DNA of 64,000 nucleotides, taken from positions 594,501-658,500 of the forward strand of contig NZ_CP007029.1 of assembly GCF_000227685.2 (NCBI RefSeq), given 5' to 3'. Position numbers and translations under genes: made by a program. Origin of the DNA: Thioalkalivibrio paradoxus ARh 1 (GTDB taxonomy: Bacteria > Pseudomonadota > Gammaproteobacteria > Ectothiorhodospirales > Ectothiorhodospiraceae). Shown in pieces: positions 4,148-21,425 of the stretch. Every line of letters begins with the position of its first letter. Positions within the stretch are counted from its first letter, which is position 1. The notes beneath the pieces were generated by a model that saw only the letters and a list, made by a program, of their open reading frames with translations, made no database searches and was not told the DNA's origin.

Positions 4148-5197
4148 ATGGAATCGCGTCTGGTCGACATGCACCGCCTCCCCGAGGATCGGGGAAGCGA
4201 GGTTTCGCTGCGTCCGCAGCGGCTGGCCGAATTTACCGGCCAGCCGCGCGTACTGGAGCAGATGGACCTGTTCATCCGCGCCGCGCGCGGGCGTGGCGAT
4301 GCGCTGGATCACACGCTGATCGCGGGTCCGCCAGGGCTGGGCAAGACCACGCTGGCGCATATCGTCGCCCACGAACTCGGCGTCGGGCTGCGCCAGACCT
4401 CGGGTCCGGTACTGGAGCGGGCCGGGGATCTGGCCGCGATCCTGACGGCGCTGGAACCTCGCGACGTATTGTTTGTCGACGAGATTCACCGGTTGCCCGC
4501 GGTGGTCGAGGAGGTGCTGTACCCCGCGCTGGAGGATTTCCAGCTCGATATCATGATCGGCGAGGGTCCTGCCGCGCGCTCGATCAAGCTGGATCTGCCA
4601 CCGTTCACGCTGGTGGGCGCGACGACGCGAGCGGGCCTGCTGACCGCGCCGCTGCGTGACCGGTTCGGTATCGTCCAGCGGCTGGAGCATTACAATGTCC
4701 CGGACCTGGCGGCGATCGTGCGCCGGGCGGCGGCCTTGCTGGAGGTCGGCATCGACGGCGAGGGTGCAACCGAGGTCGCGCGCCGCGCGCGCGGGACGCC
4801 GCGCCTGGCCAACCGCCTGCTGCGTCGGGTCCGCGATTTCGCGCAGGTGCGCGCGGACGGGCGCATCTCCCGGACGGTGGCGTCCGACGCGCTGGATCTG
4901 CTGGCGATCGACGCGTCGGGTCTCGACGCCCAGGACCGCCGCTTGCTGGAAATCCTGGTGGAGAAGTTCGACGGCGGGCCGGTGGGTGTGGACAGCCTGG
5001 CGACGGCGCTGAACGAGGACCGGGGAACGCTGGAGGATGTCGTGGAACCGTTCCTGATTCAGCAGGGCTATCTGATGCGTACGCCGCGGGGCCGGCAGGC
5101 AACTCGGCAGACGTTTCTGCTGCTGGGGCTGCCCGACCGGGTGTCGGCGCGGCCGGATCTGTTCGGGGTTCCCGGCGTGCCGGGAGGCGAGGGCTGA
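4148..5197 (+). CDS. ruvB: Holliday junction ATPase RuvB
   Basis: Hexameric AAA+ motor that drives branch migration. It has Walker [13 protein letters not shown], Walker [12 protein letters not shown], sensor region [19 protein letters not shown], and a C-terminal winged helix. The ATG at 4148 gives 349 residues; a GTG two codons upstream is equally open but less likely. A gap of about 110 bases separates it from ruvA, and its stop overlaps the ybgC start, linking the ruv and tol-pal groups on one strand. Confidence 0.97.
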
Positions 5198-12168: not shown

Positions 12169-12244
12169 GGGCCGTTAGCTCAGCTGGTAGAGCAGTGGAC
12201 TTTTAATCCATTGGTCGTAGGTTCGAATCCTACACGGCCCACCA
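12169..12244 (+). tRNA. tRNA-Lys (anticodon UUU)
   Basis: Complete 76-base tRNA with encoded CCA. The acceptor arms GGGCCGT/ACGGCCC pair perfectly, the D loop holds AGCTGGTAGAGC, the anticodon loop is CTTTTAA and the T arm is GTAGGTTCGAATCCTAC. Its 3' 48 bases recur at 18856-18903, so the gene is also the integration site of the following island; the tRNA stays intact. Confidence 0.98.
12197..12244 (+). repeat. Left attachment-site core (attL)
   Basis: Anticodon-loop-to-CCA part of tRNA-Lys, identical over 48 bases to 18856-18903. It is the left crossover region of the island. Confidence 0.88.
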
Positions 12245-12922: not shown

Positions 12923-13149
12923 CCGCCAGAACCCTGGTCTCGAACCCGCTCAACGCCATTCTTGACTGCCCGGAGCCCCGCCTCGCTTGCTTCGCGCTTC
13001 TACCTCCTCCTGACTGCGACTTCGGCGCGGATGCCGAAAGTCGCGTCTCAGAGCCCCGTCGGCTCATAACCTCCTGACTATGACGCGCCGTGGTACGGAA
13101 CCGCGCGTTTTTCGGACTGCTTGGTACGGGAGTGCCGTACCGAATAGCG
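12923..13149 (+). repeat. Diverged direct repeat, copy A (left of the deaminase)
   Basis: About 227 bp that recurs in the same orientation at 15882-16109. The last 75 bases are nearly identical, the first part more diverged. It ends in a perfect hairpin GGTACGG-N5-CCGTACC (13123-13141), and an inner CGCGCC...GGCGCG-like stem followed by T5 resembles a terminator. It brackets the lysis remnant and deaminase gene. Confidence 0.8.
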
Positions 13150-13176: not shown

Positions 13177-13273
13177 GACGCGCAGCAGGCTTGGACCGAG
13201 ACCGATCAGGCGCTCTGGGCCGGTGTGCTCAACTTCTGGTTCCTGGGCCGGGTCCTGGACAAGGTGCGGCGAT
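13177..13273 (+). pseudogene. Possible holin C-terminal remnant (3TM holin type)
   Basis: One frame reads TWTETDQALWAGVLNFWFLGR then VLDKVRR with no start. The FWF-G-R-x-L-x-K ending just before a lysozyme gene is what I expect of phage/GTA three-helix holins. Only about 30 residues remain, so the call rests on this ending and on its position in front of an endolysin remnant. Confidence 0.35.
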
Positions 13274-13737
13274 GTTCGATGTGCCGCCGCAGGCAATCGA
13301 ACTCGCCGAGCGCTTCGAGGGCTTCCATCGGGACCAGAAGAACGGTCCGGGGCGGGCGCACCCCTACGTTTGCCCGGCAGGCTACTGGACAATCGGATAC
13401 GGCCGCCTGTGCGACCGCGACCATCCACCGGTCACTGAGGTCGAAGCCGACGCCTACCTTGTGGAAGACCTCAGAGAGGTGTGCATTGGGCGGGACGCAG
13501 CGGCACTGCCCGGTGCTCGCCACCGAGACGGACAAGCGTCTGGCGGCTATCGTCGACTTCACGTTCAACCTCGGTGCGGGTCGTTTGCAGATATCCACGC
13601 TGCGGCAGCGGATCAACGAGCGGGACTGGCTAGCCGCGAAGAGGGAGATCTGGCTCTGGGTCGACGGGGGGGCATAAGGTTCCCAGGGCCTCTTGACAAG
13701 GCGCGAGGCGGAGGTGCGGTTGATTCAAACGGGGGCG
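13272..13737 (+). pseudogene. Phage endolysin (GH24 lysozyme), frameshifted
   Basis: Starting at ATG 13272 the frame reads an N-terminal lysozyme half: IELAERFEGFH with the catalytic Glu, then PYVCPAGYWTIGYGRLCD. Near 13480-13510 the match moves to another frame, giving LAAIVDFTFNLGAGRLQIST and INERDWLAAKREIWLW. After a TAA at 13675 it continues as GLLTRREAEVRLIQTG, the usual family ending. Two or more frame changes plus a stop make it non-functional. It is evidence that the island includes a former prophage lysis cassette. Confidence 0.75.
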
Positions 13738-13862
13738 CTGCCAACCTATCGCAACCGCGTGCCACTCAGAGACCAAAATGGCACGGAAATTCACGCGGGG
13801 GTCCCAAATTCCCCGGAAAACCGGTACAGCGTCTGCCATACTCCACCAGAACTAACCCGACT

Positions 13863-15530
13863 ATGACTACCACGATGCTTGAGATAGACACAGGCATAAT
13901 TCCGCCAGATCTTGATCCGCTCAAGGCTATCGATAAGCCAGAATTGGTCATCGGCTTGGTCGGTCCTATCGGCACCGATCGCGGCGAGATCTTTGCCGCT
14001 CTTGAAGCTGCTCTCGACGCCTACGGCTATACTACACGTCGAATCCGCGTCAGCAACACGCTCCATGAGTTGCCCGGACTTGGATGGCTGGCAGATCTTG
14101 AACGCGACGAGTTCCGACGCATTAAGAAGCACATGCGTGCTGGGACCTTAGTACGTGAGATCACCGGTCGGGCAGACGCTCTTGCCTGCTTTTCTATCGC
14201 TGAAATCAGAAAAATACGCTCTGAACTTCACTCGCCAGTTCCCGATACGAGTGGACCTCAGTACGACCCAGGGACTCGTGTTCGTCCGGCCACCGCGTAT
14301 GTACTGGATTCGTTGAAACATCCACAAGAGATCCACACGCTTCGTGCTGTATATGGAAGAGCTTTTATTGCTCTCTCCATTCATACACCGCAGGACAAGC
14401 GTGTCCGAAACCTCTCTCAGCGATTGGCTGAAGCGCAATACGATGCGCAAAATACGAATAAATTCGACGTCGAAGCAACGAAGCTTATTCAGATTGATGA
14501 AAAAGAAGAAGGGACTGCGCTTGGCCAGGATGTGCGCTCTTCTTTTCCGCGAGCAGATTTTTTTCTCAATGCATCCAGCACTCCAACTATCCATTCGGAT
14601 ATAAAGCGATTCTTAGCGCTTTTCTTCAATCACCCGTTCCGGACCCCGACCTACGATGAATTCGGAATGTTCTTCGCAGAAGCATCTTCTTGGCGGTCTT
14701 CAGATCTAGGGCGCCAGGTGGGGGCATCTATTCTAAGCGCAACTGGTGAACTTCTTGCTGTCGGGTTTAACGAAGTTCCAAAGCCAAATGGCGGCTACAA
14801 CTGGGAAGGCGAGACTCCCGACTATCGGGACTTCCAATACGGTAAAGATGAGGGTACTCGTCAAAAGAATCTGATGGTCGCAGAGGTTTTGCAACGGATC
14901 GCAAGTAGTAATCTTGTGTCTAGCGACAAACAGGCAGAGGTGCAGAAGCTAATTTCAGATGTTGCCAATGGCCTGGGTCATCCATTAACAAAGAACCTTA
15001 AAGCGCTGAGCGTTATTGAATTTAATCGCTCAGTTCATGCAGAGATGGCAGCGATCTGTGATGCAGCGTCACGCGGCGTTTCAATTAGGGGCGCGCAATT
15101 ATTTGTCAACACCTTTCCCTGCCACATTTGCGCGCGCCACATCCTTGCGGCGGGCATTAGTCGGGTCGTTTACATCGAGCCTTATCCAAAGAGCCTTACA
15201 ACAACGCTGTACGCGGATCAGATTGGCCAATCGTCGAGTGGTGACTGCCGCGACACAGTACCGTTTGAGGCGTTCAGAGGAGTCGCGCCGCGGATGTACC
15301 AGTTCCTTTTTAAGGCGCAGGGTGAAAGAAAGGAAAGCTCCGGTGTGGTAACTAGGTGGAATGAGAGAGATGCAAACACAAAATTAAAGAGGTATGTTCT
15401 CTCGTATGTTGCGATTGAGCAGACTGTGGTTGGGCGTCTTTTGGAAAAGCTAGCGGAAGACTTGAATCGTAATGAGGTGGCACTAGTGTCTTTACAACAT
15501 GAGGAGGAAAGCGACCATGGCGCAAAATAA
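13863..15530 (+). CDS. Anti-phage dCTP/dCMP deaminase (AvcD/DCD-like)
   Basis: A 555-residue two-domain protein. Residues about 28-230 form a P-loop-kinase-like domain (GLVGPIGTD at 31-39, replacing a classical GKT/S loop). Residues about 280-500 form a cytidine/deoxycytidylate deaminase domain with the zinc site HAE at 392-394 and PCHIC (Cys420, Cys423). This order and length match the AvcD/DCD anti-phage deaminases, which deplete deoxycytidine nucleotides when phage infection disturbs the host; in Vibrio AvcD is held inactive by an upstream RNA, AvcI. ATG 13863 is chosen because the family begins just before the P-loop; the frame is open far upstream across the lysozyme remnant. The region is clearly more A/T-rich than the core, suggesting acquisition. 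Catalytic residues are intact. Confidence 0.88.
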   Translation: MTTTMLEIDTGIIPPDLDPLKAIDKPELVIGLVGPIGTDRGEIFAALEAALDAYGYTTRRIRVSNTLHELPGLGWLADLERDEFRRIKKHMRAGTLVREITGRADALACFSIAEIRKIRSELHSPVPDTSGPQYDPGTRVRPATAYVLDSLKHPQEIHTLRAVYGRAFIALSIHTPQDKRVRNLSQRLAEAQYDAQNTNKFDVEATKLIQIDEKEEGTALGQDVRSSFPRADFFLNASSTPTIHSDIKRFLALFFNHPFRTPTYDEFGMFFAEASSWRSSDLGRQVGASILSATGELLAVGFNEVPKPNGGYNWEGETPDYRDFQYGKDEGTRQKNLMVAEVLQRIASSNLVSSDKQAEVQKLISDVANGLGHPLTKNLKALSVIEFNRSVHAEMAAICDAASRGVSIRGAQLFVNTFPCHICARHILAAGISRVVYIEPYPKSLTTTLYADQIGQSSSGDCRDTVPFEAFRGVAPRMYQFLFKAQGERKESSGVVTRWNERDANTKLKRYVLSYVAIEQTVVGRLLEKLAEDLNRNEVALVSLQHEEESDHGAK

Positions 15531-15693
15531 TGGGTATGCGGAGCAGATTGCCGCTGCGAAGCGTTCGCTTGAAACTTGGCCGGATTGGATGAAAGTTAAC
15601 GCAAGATTTCACGGGTCCGAGATTTCGAAGGGATCCAAGGAGAGTCGCTCAGGTGAGGCGCAAAAGAACATGCGGAATAGAGGCGACGGATGA
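15517..15693 (+). CDS. 58-residue ORF overlapping the deaminase end, unknown
   Basis: Starts inside the last 14 bases of the deaminase gene with a strong ribosome site (GAGGAGGAAA, 7 bases before ATG), so it is probably translated from the same mRNA. The protein is small and polar: Ala/Lys-rich helix, then the aromatic motif TWPDWMKVNARFHG, then a basic Ser/Lys-rich tail. I do not recognise a named family. The tight overlap suggests a function tied to the deaminase, such as modulator or partner, but this is inference. Confidence 0.65.
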   Translation: MAQNNGYAEQIAAAKRSLETWPDWMKVNARFHGSEISKGSKESRSGEAQKNMRNRGDG

Positions 15694-15881: not shown

Positions 15882-16109
15882 CCGCCAGCACTCTAGATCG
15901 CGAACCCGCTCAGCGCGATTCGTGACTGCCCGGAGCCTCGCACCAAGCGGGGCTTCGCGCTTCTGCCTCCTGGCTACGACTTCGGTCCAGACGCTGAAAG
16001 TGGCGTACCAGATCTCCATCGGCTCAAGACCTCCCGACTATGACGCGCCGTGGTACGGAACCGCGCGTTTTTCGCACCGCTTGGTACGGAAGTGCCGTAC
16101 CGAATAGCG
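15882..16109 (+). repeat. Diverged direct repeat, copy B (right of the deaminase)
   Basis: About 228 bp matching 12923-13149 in the same orientation, ending in the same hairpin (GGTACGG-N5-CCGTACC, 16083-16101). The two copies bracket the lysozyme remnant, deaminase and small ORF. Confidence 0.8.
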
Positions 16110-16274
16110 GCGTGCGGGATAAGGATTATCTTGGTAGCCGAGGCGTAGCTGGATGCACTTCAAGGAATCCCCGCGATTCGCGCGGAACCCACCGTGCATG
16201 TCCGAGTATGGGCTTGCTACTTGGTGCGAGTCAGCAAGCCGTTGGGTCCCTGTTGCTCATCCGGTCGGCGTTGC

Positions 16275-16383: not shown

Positions 16384-17460
16384 TCATGCCGCCTGAGCGA
16401 CCATCAGGGCTGGCGTTTGGGCATGTTCCTTCGGTGGGTTGAGCCAGACGTGATCGATCGGTGTCCAGTTGCGCGTGTGCCGCGACCAGCGTGTCGGGTT
16501 GGCGCGTTGGGCGTCTTGGTACACCCGGTGCCGGTGCGCCAGGATCGCGATGTCCTCCCCGCGATGACGCTGGCCGGGGGTGACGAAGCGGATCTTGCTG
16601 TGGCGATGTTCCTCGTTGTACCAGTGGACGAAGCGCGCGACCCAAGCGCGGGCGTCGGCGAGGCTGGCAAACGGCTGAGGCGGAAAGGCCGGCGTGTATT
16701 TCAAGGTCCGGAACAGGCTTTCCGCGTAGGGGTTGTCGTCGCTCACCGAGGGGCGACTGAAGGACGGGACGACACCCAGGCGCTGCAAGGTGCTGAGCAT
16801 GGTGGCACCCTTCATGGGGCTGCCATTATCCGAGTGCAGCACCAGGCCCGGGCGATGGACGCCCTCGGCGAGACAGGCGCGTTCGATCAGGCGACTGGCG
16901 TGTTCGGCGCTTTCCTCGGTGTGCACCTCCCAGCCGACGACCTTGCGGCTGAAGACGTCCTCGATCAGGTACAGGCGGTAGAACTGCCCCCGGATCGAAG
17001 AGGCCAGGAAGGTGATGTCCCACGCCCAGCAAACATTGGGCGCAGTCGCGCAGACCCCCTCCGGTTTGGGCACCTGCCGTGGGGCCGCCGCCCGGCCCCG
17101 GCGCTGTACCTGGTCATGGGCCCGCAGCACGCGGTAGAAGCTCGCCTCGGACGCGATGTACACGCCCTGGTCGGCCAGGCGCGGCACGATCTGGGTCGGT
17201 GGCAGGCTACGGTACTCCGGCGCGTTACAGACCGTCAGGATCGTCTCCTGCTCTTCGGCACTCAGGCGGTTGGCCGGCACCCGCGGGGTGCAGGTGCGCC
17301 GGTCCACCAGCCCGGTGTCGCTGCCGGCGAGGGCGCGCCAGCGGCGCAGCGTGCGCGGCGTCAGGCCGAGGACCGCACAGGCCGGGGTGAGCCGGGCACC
17401 GGCGGCGACCGCCTCGTCGATCAGGTCCAGCGCCAAGGCACGGGTCTCGGGCGTGATCAT
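16384..17460 (-). CDS. IS3-family transposase OrfB (DDE catalytic part)
   Basis: A 358-residue rve-type integrase/transposase. The DDE triad is visible in VCWAWDITFLAS, LVLHSDNGSPM and NPYAESLFRTLK, with the usual HWYNEEHRHSKI segment. Its ATG overlaps the orfA stop (ATGA), and its frame also stays open upstream to 17694, as needed for an OrfAB fusion made by -1 frameshifting. Confidence 0.93.
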   Translation of the reverse strand: MITPETRALALDLIDEAVAAGARLTPACAVLGLTPRTLRRWRALAGSDTGLVDRRTCTPRVPANRLSAEEQETILTVCNAPEYRSLPPTQIVPRLADQGVYIASEASFYRVLRAHDQVQRRGRAAAPRQVPKPEGVCATAPNVCWAWDITFLASSIRGQFYRLYLIEDVFSRKVVGWEVHTEESAEHASRLIERACLAEGVHRPGLVLHSDNGSPMKGATMLSTLQRLGVVPSFSRPSVSDDNPYAESLFRTLKYTPAFPPQPFASLADARAWVARFVHWYNEEHRHSKIRFVTPGQRHRGEDIAILAHRHRVYQDAQRANPTRWSRHTRNWTPIDHVWLNPPKEHAQTPALMVAQAA

Positions 17461-17954
17461 GCGTCCTCGTCGTCCCCCCAGATCGCCTGGGCTTTTTTTT
17501 TCAACACCAGCAAGGCGGCTGCCTCGGCCAGGGCTTTCTCTTTCCGGCGCAGCTCGCGCTCCAGGTCGCGCACGCGCTTCTTCTCCTGCTGCCAGGCGGC
17601 ACGCTCGTCCCGGGTCAGCCGCTGGGGATCGGCGCTGCCGGCCATGGCCGCTTCCTTCCAGCGCTCGATCTGCTCGGGATACAGACCCTTGCACCGGCAG
17701 TACTCCGAGAGCGCCTGCTCATTCAGCGCGGCGGTTTCGATCACCACCGCGAGCTTGTCCCGGCCACTCCAGGATTCCGGGTTCGCCGGATCCGCCGGCA
17801 CCGCATGCCCCCGGTCCTGGAACTCCCGGCGCCAGGCATACAGGGTGGGTTCCGACACCCCCGTCTCCCGGTGCACGTCGGCCACCGCCCGGGCATTGGG
17901 CGGCATCATCTTCTCGACCACCTTGGCTTTGAACTCTTCGCTGTACCGTGGCAT
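17457..17954 (-). CDS. IS3-family transposase OrfA (helix-turn-helix part)
   Basis: A 165-residue DNA-binding subunit. It starts MPRYSEEFKAKVVEKM, carries a helix-turn-helix (ARAVADVHRETGVSEPTLYAW) and ends in a leucine-zipper-like Glu/Lys/Arg coil. A longer upstream ATG (18002) is open but lacks homology. Confidence 0.92.
   Translation of the reverse strand: MPRYSEEFKAKVVEKMMPPNARAVADVHRETGVSEPTLYAWRREFQDRGHAVPADPANPESWSGRDKLAVVIETAALNEQALSEYCRCKGLYPEQIERWKEAAMAGSADPQRLTRDERAAWQQEKKRVRDLERELRRKEKALAEAAALLVLKKKAQAIWGDDEDA
17493..17501 (-). promoter_or_regulatory. Programmed -1 frameshift run (A9) in the IS3 element
   Basis: On the coding (minus) strand nine A residues are followed by GCCC, giving an A-AAA-AAG slippery heptamer near the end of orfA where the orfB frame is open. 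This is the usual IS3 mechanism for making the OrfAB transposase. Confidence 0.75.
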
Positions 17955-18025
17955 TCCATCCGCTCTCTCCGCCCCCTCGAGGGTTAAGTTTACTGCGTCC
18001 AATCCAGCGGACTTCTATGCTGACA

Positions 18026-18672
18026 GAGGGGGAACACCAGTTCAGGCAGGTCCGCAGCAACCGGTAGCCGCGTGCGGCTACCGTGGGACGCGTGGCCTTC
18101 TCCTCTTCAAGCCAAGCGGCGATCCGGGCCGGCGTGAGATTCTCGATCCGCTCGTTCCTGAGCGCGAACAGGACCCCGGGCTTGGTCTTCTTCGGGGACC
18201 GCTTGCGGTCCTGGCCTGGCGCGGTCATGACCTGCCGATGGTCATGCAGATGCGCGGCGCTCCAGTCAGCAGAGCGGGCCGCGACATAGGCGTCCCACGC
18301 CTCGCCGAAGGTGATCCGGGTCGCCTCCTCACGCTGCTTGGCTGCCGCCTCGGCTTCCTCGCGCTCGGCCCTTTCCCGGCGGGGATCGATGCCCTTGTCA
18401 ACGAGGGTCCGCAGCCTGCGGGCCTCCTTGCGGGCGCGGTCGATATCCCAGGTCTTGGGATCGCCGATCCGCATCTTGAAGGGCTTGCCGTGGATGCGCG
18501 CCTGGAAGACGAACGTCTTGCTTCCACCCGCGCGAGCGCGAAGTCCCAGACCCGGGCACGCCGAGTCCCAGAGGAACGCCTCCAGCTTGCCCGGCGCACA
18601 TTGGAAGGCGTTGACCCTGCCCAGGGTGAAGCTCACGATGTTTCTGTCCGGATCCTTCGCTGGCTTCGCCAT
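18026..18672 (-). pseudogene. Island tyrosine integrase, 5' part, truncated by the IS3 element
   Basis: About 216 residues remain from ATG at 18672. They comprise the N-terminal DUF4102-type arm-binding domain (CPGLGLRARAGGSKTFVFQA, MRIGDPKTWDIDRARKEA) and the start of the core-binding domain (TFGEAWDAYVA, NLTPARIAAWL, RGYRLLRTCLNWC). The catalytic domain with its R-H-R-Y residues is gone. The gene starts about 180 bases inside the right attachment core, consistent with P4-type tRNA integrases. Confidence 0.9.
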
Positions 18673-18726
18673 GGCTCCTCCTCTGAGCACCTGGGGCTTT
18701 CCGAACGTTCTGTCCGACCGATCGAA

Positions 18727-18855: not shown

Positions 18856-18903
18856 GGACTTTTAATCCATTGGTCGTAGGTTCGAATCCTACACGGCCCA
18901 CCA
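18856..18903 (+). repeat. Right attachment-site core (attR)
   Basis: 48-bp copy of the tRNA-Lys 3' half including CCA; the sequence before it (CCTATTCGGGC) does not match the tRNA, so it is only a partial duplicate and not a second tRNA gene. Confidence 0.88.
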
Positions 18904-19748: not shown

Positions 19749-21425
19749 TTACAGTTCCGGCGCCGGGATTTTCAGATCCTCGGGCGTGAGCCGATGCGGC
19801 AGCAGGGCCGCGATGCCGCCCGGGGTGGTCACCGCCGGCAGGGTCTCGAACAGGTAATGCAGGTAGGCGCGCGGCTCCAGGCCGTTGGCCTTCGCCGTCT
19901 CCACCAGGGTGTAGAGCATCGCACTGGCCTCGGCACCGCGCGGGCTGCCGCTGAACAGCCACGCCTTGCGCCCCAGGGCGAATGGCCGGATCGCGTTCTC
20001 GGCCAGATTGTTGTCGATCTCGAGGTGACCGTCCTGCAGGAACGTGATCAGGATCGGCCACTGCCTGCGGGCATACTGGATCGCCTCGCCCAGCAGGCCC
20101 TTGGGCAGCACCTTCTGCGCCTTGTCGTCGAGCCAGGCCTGGATCTCATCCAGGATCGGCTGCGACTGTTCCCGCCGCACCGCGTGGCGGTGTTCCGGGG
20201 CCGTGCCGCGGATCCGGCGCTCGACCTCGTAGAGCTTGCCGATCAAGGCCACGAAGGCATGCGCGGCCCCGGTCTTGGTTCGACTGTTGGCCGCCTCGAC
20301 GGCCTTGCGCCGGACGTGGGCCCAGCACCCCATGTGGCCCCGGATGCCCTCTTTCTCTGCCAGCGCGTGATAGCCCGCATAGCCATCCGTCTGCAGATAG
20401 AACCGGAGTTCCGGAGGCCGGCCGTCTCCTTCCGGGAACAGGAAGTCGATCGGCACCTCGCCGCTGCGGCTCGGGGCGTACTGGAACCAGATCACTGGTC
20501 TTCCAGACGGCCCACCGCGGTAGACCCACATATAGGACTTGGTGGTGTTGGCCCGGCCCGGTTCATCGAGCACCTGCACCGGGGTCTCGTCGATCTGCAG
20601 CACCGGGCCTTGGGTCAGGTGCTGCTTCAAAGCGGCCAGCACCGGGGCGAGCGGGGTGGCCAGTTGTACGATCCAGCCGGACAGGGTCTGGCGGGAGAGC
20701 TCGATGCCCTCGCGGGCGAAGACCTTCTCCTGGCGGTACAGCGGCAGGCCATCGACGAACTTGCCCGTAACCACCTCCGCGAGCAGCGAACTGTGCGCGA
20801 TGGCTTTCGGCAGGATCTGCGCCGGGCGGGGTGCGATCCGCAGCCCCGCCTCGGCGCCGGGTACGTCGGCGTGGATCGGCGCGTACTTGGCGCGCTTGAT
20901 CTTGATCACGTAGTACTGCTTGGGCAGCACCCCCAGCTGCTCGGACTCGTCGAAGCCGATCCGCACGTGGGTCTCGGCGAGCGCCGCCTGTTCCGCCTCG
21001 GACAGGTCCAGGATGCGCTCCACCCGCGGCAGGTGCGCCGGCAGCGGCTTGCGCTTCGGGGTCTGCTTCTTGGGTTCGGTACGTTCCGAGCGTGGCGGCG
21101 CCTTGGCTTCGGCGATCTGGGCGTCCAGTTCCTCGATCAGGACGTTCAGCTCGGCTTCGTCAAAGAGCGCGAGCTGCTCCCGCGCGACGCGATCCGCCTT
21201 CGGTCCGAAGCGCTGGTGGCGCAGCAGATCCAGGCGCTCCAGGAGGAGCTCGATCTTGCGGTCGAGCTTATCGATGGTCTCGTTCCGCACCCGAAGTTCT
21301 GCATCGCGTGCCTGCAACTCGGCCTCGAAGCGCTGTTCCCGCGCGACCTTCTCGGCCGCCATCCGGGCGATGATCGCGTGCAGCTCCGCGGGGTCCTTGG
21401 GGAGCTTCTGAGCGGCTTCGGGCAT
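19749..21425 (-). CDS. tnpC: IS66 transposase TnpC
   Basis: 558-residue IS66 transposase. It has an N-terminal coiled coil (about 20-75), a zinc-finger-type region, and the DDE catalytic core with LQIDETPVQVL, TDGYAGYHALAE and the C-terminal NNLAENAIRPFALGRKAW plus IS66 C-terminal element. It is separated by about 50 bases from tnpB. Confidence 0.96.
   Translation of the reverse strand: MPEAAQKLPKDPAELHAIIARMAAEKVAREQRFEAELQARDAELRVRNETIDKLDRKIELLLERLDLLRHQRFGPKADRVAREQLALFDEAELNVLIEELDAQIAEAKAPPRSERTEPKKQTPKRKPLPAHLPRVERILDLSEAEQAALAETHVRIGFDESEQLGVLPKQYYVIKIKRAKYAPIHADVPGAEAGLRIAPRPAQILPKAIAHSSLLAEVVTGKFVDGLPLYRQEKVFAREGIELSRQTLSGWIVQLATPLAPVLAALKQHLTQGPVLQIDETPVQVLDEPGRANTTKSYMWVYRGGPSGRPVIWFQYAPSRSGEVPIDFLFPEGDGRPPELRFYLQTDGYAGYHALAEKEGIRGHMGCWAHVRRKAVEAANSRTKTGAAHAFVALIGKLYEVERRIRGTAPEHRHAVRREQSQPILDEIQAWLDDKAQKVLPKGLLGEAIQYARRQWPILITFLQDGHLEIDNNLAENAIRPFALGRKAWLFSGSPRGAEASAMLYTLVETAKANGLEPRAYLHYLFETLPAVTTPGGIAALLPHRLTPEDLKIPAPEL

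Follow-up and report, generated by a model that had tools for sequence, protein, structure and literature searches.

The locus and its surroundings

The locus considered here lies within a stretch of 64,000 nucleotides from Thioalkalivibrio paradoxus ARh 1, referred to throughout as the window, where a deaminase gene and a small overlapping ORF sit in an island of 6.7 kb that is bounded on one side by the 3' portion of a tRNA-Lys gene and on the other by an exact 48-bp copy of that portion (Table 1). The order within the island is a lysozyme remnant, the deaminase gene, the small ORF and then an integrase region filled by transposase ORFs, which we take to be IS3-like. Because these ORFs occupy the integrase region (16384-18690), the island has probably lost the ability to move on its own. 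An earlier note on this DNA had described the deaminase as standing in an otherwise decayed island, a description with which the 48-bp tRNA-Lys repeat, the integrase frame running into transposase sequence and the lysozyme in two frames all agree. The adjoining lysozyme remnant suggests that the deaminase and the small ORF came as phage or satellite cargo.

Two copies of a direct repeat of about 215 bp, some 2,960 bp apart, bracket the lysozyme remnant, the deaminase gene and the small ORF. The repeat carries short inverted GGTACGG/CCGTACC motifs, and one more partial copy (70%) is found elsewhere in the genome. Just beyond the island, on the minus strand at 19749-21425, there is a 558-aa ORF that is presumably an IS66-like transposase. 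Among Rfam matches listed up to an E-value of 1, the tRNA alone passes the gathering score in the window, and the plus strand between 13600 and 15900 holds no sigma-70-like promoter match.

Table 1. Features of the island, with positions in the window.
Feature	Position	Strand	Basis or remark
tRNA-Lys(TTT)	12169-12244	+	3' 48 bases (12197-12244) form the island's left boundary
Direct repeat of about 215 bp, left copy	12938-13149	+	84% identical to right copy
Phage lysozyme remnant	13272-13770 (end approximate)	+	two reading frames, upstream of deaminase
Anti-phage dCTP deaminase (DCD/AvcD type)	13863-15530	+	555 aa; PADLOC, NCBIfam, structure model
AGGAGG ribosome-binding site of the small ORF	15502-15507	+	6-base Shine-Dalgarno match, within the deaminase gene
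Overlap of deaminase and small ORF coding sequences	15517-15530	+	14 nt; sequence reading
Small ORF (putative partner protein)	15517-15693	+	58 aa; ORF reading, profile, structure model
Direct repeat of about 215 bp, right copy	15896-16110	+	84% identical to left copy
Transposase ORFs in integrase region (presumed IS3-like)	16384-18002	-	rve integrase core 16384-17694; HTH_Tnp_1 17457-18002
Integrase N-terminal part (Arm-DNA-bind_3)	17719-18690	-	frame continues into transposase sequence
Exact 48-bp copy of tRNA-Lys 3' part	18856-18903	+	direct repeat; right end of the island

The deaminase

Deaminases of the DCD/AvcD type convert dCTP and dCMP to dUTP and dUMP, and HAE...PCxxC is the motif of the deaminase active site. 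The window enzyme scores 414.8 bits against the NCBIfam model NF041025, 'anti-phage dCTP deaminase', and thus passes its equivalog cut-off of 400, and the PADLOC dCTPase model PDLC02373 matches it at E=1.3e-148. Residues H392, E394, P419, C420 and C423 are invariant in an alignment of 39 rows, in which the HAE...PCxxC site of the window enzyme is intact; by reference to the cytidine deaminase superfamily we take H392, E394, C420 and C423 to be the zinc and catalytic residues. The structure model (mean pLDDT 87.1) comprises a kinase-like domain at residues 28-255, similar to the AdkA-like structure 3lw7 (Z 16.0, rmsd 2.4, 169 aligned), and a deaminase domain at residues of about 262-482, with a Z of 18.4 to the dCMP deaminase 2hvv. 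Read by eye, the loop of the kinase-like domain is GPIGTD, without the classical GK[ST]. The earlier note's identification of an anti-phage deaminase with its zinc residues and kinase-like domain intact is thereby borne out. In a tree of 148 rows the sister of the window deaminase, with a support of 100, is that of Idiomarina baltica, whose own small ORF also belongs to the downstream family described below.

The small ORF

The small ORF starts at -13 relative to the deaminase stop, behind a ribosome-binding site that lies inside the deaminase gene, and the resulting overlap makes translational coupling of the two possible. That the ORF overlaps the deaminase end behind a strong ribosome site had been noticed from the letters alone, as had its TWPDWMK motif, which is present in the 58-aa protein as part of the longer LETWPDWMK. 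The protein is basic, with helices predicted at residues 5-19 and 23-28 followed by a coil tail of low confidence, and the ORF occurs once in the host genome (one 3.76-Mb contig).

A family of small ORFs beside deaminases

Other deaminases were collected as 167 loci picked by similarity to the window deaminase, of which 6 came from a genome search, 15 from plasmids, 80 from genome contigs (the best 80 of at least 561) and 66 from viral contigs. Three loci without a deaminase stop were removed to leave 164, which were reduced to 150 at 95% identity and to 148 in the tree; L041 and L064, with an in-frame stop within the deaminase, were retained in the counts. Two 5-kb records from human faeces that carry a deaminase gene, MT838710.1 and MT839973.1, are labelled 'Bacteriophage sp.', and by their size may be small plasmids.

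The main profile was seeded with 15 downstream ORFs, including that of the window, and was searched against all six-frame ORFs of at least 30 aa, at first 15,090 of them and then, in six rounds, 15,337. The window ORF matches this profile at E=2.9e-15, being itself one of the seeds. In the final round all 31 included matches, from the 167 loci, lay immediately behind a deaminase gene and in its orientation, although they represent fewer independent cases because L003/L021 and L111/L112 are near-copies. All 35 matches with E<0.05 in that round fell in the downstream slot, to which 227 of the 15,337 ORFs belong; in the second round 2 of the 36 matches below 0.05 had fallen outside it. The search beside other AvcD/DCD genes that the earlier note had proposed thus found the ORF's relatives in the same place. 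When the 27 members of the main profile were randomly halved ten times, 11-14 of the 14 held-out members were regained at E<0.01, and among the 15-21 non-training matches of each split just one, in a single split, lay outside the downstream slot; since the 27 members were themselves picked by profile, it is the place of the matches that is the telling part.

A downstream partner was found in 27/150 non-redundant loci with the main profile and in 37/150 when further profiles were added. These 37 partners have a median length of 59 aa; with starts chosen by a Shine-Dalgarno and ATG score, 12 overlap the deaminase stop or abut it, 24 begin 1-70 nt after it and one begins at 118, and a Shine-Dalgarno match precedes 34 of them. 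Relatives are 12-30% identical to the small protein of the window. By record and tree labels, the downstream members with profile support are spread over Pseudomonadota, Acidobacteriota, Nitrospirota, Thermodesulfobacteriota (Dadabacteria), Cyanobacteriota and Actinomycetota. When plasmids and phages were searched by tblastn with single small proteins, no clear relative emerged beyond Vibrio nigripulchritudo, where the matches were the source record itself and another plasmid record of the same species carrying an identical copy; the other matches had an E of at least 0.09, and the family is too divergent for searches of this kind. The small partner is missing from the gene table of the V. nigripulchritudo record, a table known to be incomplete. 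One tblastn match led to a Vibrio phage region in which no annotated deaminase was seen. By profile comparison, then, the ORF of the window belongs to a protein family that is retained in the downstream slot across a broad clade of deaminases.

Specificity of the association

Searches of Pfam and NCBIfam gave no match to the small proteins better than E 0.026, and PADLOC gave none. The phage family phrog_38465, which has 55 positions and no known function, gives weak matches to 5 of 19 members (best E 1.7e-5) and does not match the window's own protein; a search with it found matches in 0/299 genomes, a result without weight because its control gave none either. The best match of the small protein among solved structures, at E 0.011, is to a designed helical repeat protein, and no stretch of this match is significant by itself.

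In 36 deaminase-carrying genomes, profile A3 gave matches with E<1e-4 in 16, one in each and all adjoining the deaminase, which counts as an absence of second copies because 13 of the 16 genomes are rows of the A3 profile. Positions were compared for 20 genomes, with contigs matched by coordinate and not by name. Weaker A3 matches lie far from the deaminase in L035 and L026, and on its other side in L074. Across 398 genomes of the phylum the window's own match is alone below 1e-4, with at most 16 candidates scored per genome so that weak relatives were possibly missed. Four weak matches in these genomes (E 0.0025-0.0084) were dismissed as chance, there being by eye no recognisable deaminase among the adjoining ORFs of at least 100 aa.

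Position of the partner across deaminase clades

Eleven further small profiles were seeded on ORFs chosen by eye at the same or other positions. With these, the 150 non-redundant loci divide into 37 with a downstream partner, 30 with a divergent upstream partner, 11 with a co-directional upstream partner and 72 with none, counts that are descriptive because each seed profile scores the very loci from which it was made, in some cases from two sequences. No locus of the 78 has partners at two positions. In the 148-row tree the divergent label falls entirely in one 47-row branch and the co-directional upstream label in one 17-row branch, with the downstream label in a 55-row and an 8-row branch; the exclusivity of the slots therefore in part reflects shared descent. 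One of the six matches to profile D5 lies outside the three slots.

An independent check on the position counts was made by a homology-free test, in which any ORF with an ATG or GTG start, 40-100 codons and a Shine-Dalgarno match was accepted if it began between -30 and +70 nt of the deaminase stop. Such an ORF occurs at 48/61 loci in the window's clade versus 1/59 in the divergent and AvcID-type clades together (Fisher p 3e-20, a value that overstates independence because the clades were drawn after the profile labels were known and the loci are related within a clade). An opposite-strand control region yielded ORFs at 6/61 loci in the window's clade, 16/44 in the divergent clade and 0/15 in the AvcID-type clade, so that chance occurrences of such ORFs are not rare everywhere. 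The contrast between the clades is nevertheless plain. The divergent slot was filled at 33/44 loci of the divergent clade versus 6/73 others, and the co-directional upstream slot at 9/12 AvcID-type loci versus 19/105 others, the latter made up of 12/61 in the window's clade and 7/44 in the divergent clade. In these tests L163, L005 and L006 were assigned no clade and loci with short flanks were dropped slot by slot. Taken together, the profile, the half-splits and the homology-free test indicate that the pairing of deaminase and small ORF exceeds chance.

Within the window's clade 26/63 loci lack a profile-supported partner, and at the 24 of these that could be tested a suitable ORF fills the slot in 15, with none in the other 9. 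The remaining group of 20 loci has a downstream ORF in 11 and a profile-supported partner in none; its plasmid members L016 (about 4587-5104) and L017 (about 4537-5075) have the place of the small ORF downstream taken by a larger overlapping one, 172 and 179 aa long, respectively, that of L016 having no Pfam family match.

The relationship between the families at different positions can also be addressed by profile. When a single-pass profile was made from the eight ORFs of the divergent group B1, the nine top matches outside its seed, among the 15,337 ORFs, were all downstream ORFs, with E from 1.3e-5 to 0.10 and two below 0.01. The hhalign comparison of the downstream family with the divergent members of B1 alone gave a probability of 68% and a score of 22.9, where 40 column shuffles reached no more than 16.8; higher values of 94.6% for B1 and 88.8% for B3 were discarded because those profiles contained downstream members. 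A relationship of the B1 divergent ORFs to the downstream family is thus supported at the profile level. For B2 (5.4%), for B3 with divergent members alone (0.3%) and for the ORFs at the AvcI site (1.1%), homology to the downstream family was not supported by hhalign, and these groups, together with B4, B5 and the D groups, appear to be like it in place and size only.

Coding signal

Seventeen pairs of small ORFs could be compared, of which two are identical and the other 15 have pN/pS ratios of 0.10-0.51 and an excess of third-position changes. In several pairs the silent sites are close to saturated, which makes the ratios of those pairs rough; among the less saturated pairs are L102/L104 (0.11), L119/L123 (0.14), L086/L089 (0.16) and L053/L054 (0.29). 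L149 was paired twice, with near-identical partners, and the window ORF is without a close enough relative for the comparison. The comparable small-ORF pairs evolve as coding sequence.

The AvcI site

Published accounts describe AvcID, from Vibrio cholerae, V. parahaemolyticus and ETEC, as a deoxycytidylate deaminase together with AvcI, and call it a type III toxin-antitoxin system (PMC10511110, PMC12409362). AvcI is there a non-coding RNA antitoxin, which is lost upon transcription shut-off and so triggers the system (PMC10511110), and in Vibrio it lies upstream of avcD (PMC9455884). Over-production of AvcD without AvcI is described as leading to filamentation, and AvcD and its homologues as being toxic in E. 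coli (PMC9455884).

An ORF is also found at this site. In the clade of L171, an upstream ORF of 56-79 aa is present in nine profile C loci, and the ETEC-type group D5 has an upstream ORF that looks related to those of profile C. L171 itself is the ETEC p58 gene, which we take to be the ETEC AvcD with AvcI upstream of it. The ORFs at the AvcI-type site are annotated 'hypothetical protein' in L171, L172, L173, L175 and L013, and in the last four of these they end in a common basic stretch closing in W-stop. Their pN/pS ratios fit coding, at 0.51 for L172/L175 and 0.11 for L149/L150 (three changes), and RNAalifold found 0 pairs in the AvcI-type upstream region, on a very divergent alignment of 10 rows. 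Coding-like ratios do not overturn the published RNA experiments, and the ORF is worth testing.

The upstream slot of the window has no match to profile C or D5. Since the window's clade shows no enrichment of co-directional upstream ORFs, the small protein looks like a replacement of AvcI and not a second layer of control. The earlier note had proposed that a small downstream protein could be an additional modulator beside the upstream RNA; such a protein is indeed conserved beside deaminases, and it is the word additional that fares poorly, given the 12/61 against 9/12 for an ORF at the upstream AvcI site.

A proposed role for the small protein and its alternatives

That the small ORF encodes a dedicated partner of the deaminase is well supported from sequence. 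The reading that we favour, with moderate confidence, is of a two-gene anti-phage nucleotide-depletion system in which the small protein stands in AvcI's place, probably as a labile inhibitor. Under this proposal the N-terminal helix and the W-P-x-W motif of the small protein would bind the deaminase and keep the enzyme off in uninfected cells, with the 14-nt overlap coupling synthesis of the small protein to that of the deaminase. The loose tail, rich in K, R, S, T, N and Q, would make the small protein short-lived, such that when a phage stops host gene expression the inhibitor would be lost first and the deaminase would drain the dC pool. The logic would be the same as with the AvcI RNA, executed here by a protein. 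We infer inhibition as the economical reading because AvcD is toxic when unrestrained, because the upstream slot is not enriched in the window's clade and because the partner is small, basic and overlapping or close.

The main rival to the inhibitor reading is that the small protein acts as an activator, sensor or adaptor, perhaps for a phage product or for replication sites, and that the deaminase is inactive without it. Position and exclusivity would fit equally well and the conservation data are the same for both, and a divergence as fast as that seen (12-30% identity) would suit a protein that has to meet variable phage triggers; nevertheless, the filamentation and toxicity reported for AvcD (PMC9455884) show that the known need is for restraint, and the predicted protein is just a short helical pair with a loose tail, so that we regard this role as rather unlikely. 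It is improbable that the 3' end of the transcript is itself an AvcI-like RNA antitoxin, with the ORF incidental or serving merely to make translation stop there. AvcI is published as an RNA and the AvcID-type upstream sites carry a conserved ORF too, and the presence of an ORF is consequently no argument against an RNA; what does argue against it are the pN/pS ratios well below 1, the third-position excess and a conservation that is visible at the protein level, with the Shine-Dalgarno matches at 34/37 weighing less because the starts were partly picked by that score. Improbable as well, finally, is a passenger role, in which the ORF would be a small mobile gene of the same defence islands that does not work with the deaminase. 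The weak matches of phrog_38465 would be in keeping with such a gene, but at E<1e-4 none was found away from deaminases in the 398 and 36 genomes, and the positions are tight and exclusive over many clades.

The inhibitor reading can be extended to the anti-phage dC deaminases as a whole, which would then generally be two-component systems where, in each major clade, a fast-evolving small protein holds the enzyme and its gene has moved among three positions. The conserved ORF at the AvcI site, which ETEC and Klebsiella records annotate as a hypothetical protein, would on this basis make a protein that acts with or instead of the RNA, and the 'type III' class would mainly be controlled by protein. 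This generalisation is tentative, and we consider it possible though on balance doubtful.

Relation to known systems and significance

The anti-phage dCTP deaminase, DCD, was reportedly described by Tal et al. in 2022 as a single-gene system. The enzyme of the window falls within DCD as defined by NF041025 and the PADLOC dCTPase, its score lying above the NCBIfam cut-off, whereas the libraries give no model match for a small partner. With AvcID the window shares the deaminase family, a small regulatory element beside the gene and the setting in a mobile island. The putative element differs in that it is a protein-coding ORF, lies downstream with an overlap and comes from another sequence family, and the ETEC p58 deaminase belongs to another clade, in which the element is co-directional upstream. 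In type II toxin-antitoxin systems a small, partly disordered protein from an overlapping gene pair binds and neutralises the toxin. The window resembles these in its small protein, predicted to be partly disordered, and its overlapping pair, and is unlike them in that the partner gene follows the enzyme gene and that no antitoxin domain is recognised by Pfam or NCBIfam. Clover consists of the dGTPase CloA and of CloB, an enzyme that is described as making an inhibitory nucleotide (PMC12265719). The likeness to Clover lies in a nucleotide-depleting defence enzyme checked by a neighbouring gene, a check that for the window we infer, and the difference lies in the neighbour, which at 58 aa is too small for a CloB-like enzyme.

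The available parts of PMC10511110, PMC9455884, PMC12409362, PMC10250203 and PMC12265719 do not mention a small protein as partner of DCD, the founding papers lying outside this search. The enzyme is already known; on this weak evidence, what appears to be new is the conserved small partner, its clade-linked switch of position and its exclusivity. The position switch and mutual exclusivity serve as a natural control, and suggest that the partner is functionally equivalent to the AvcI site. The proposal also predicts that a DCD gene of the window's clade tested alone is one tested without its partner, and the downstream family supplies a set of small ORFs for inhibition tests. Central to the study of nucleotide-depletion defence is the question of how such deaminases stay harmless and what then activates them, and for this the small partner would provide a direct handle.
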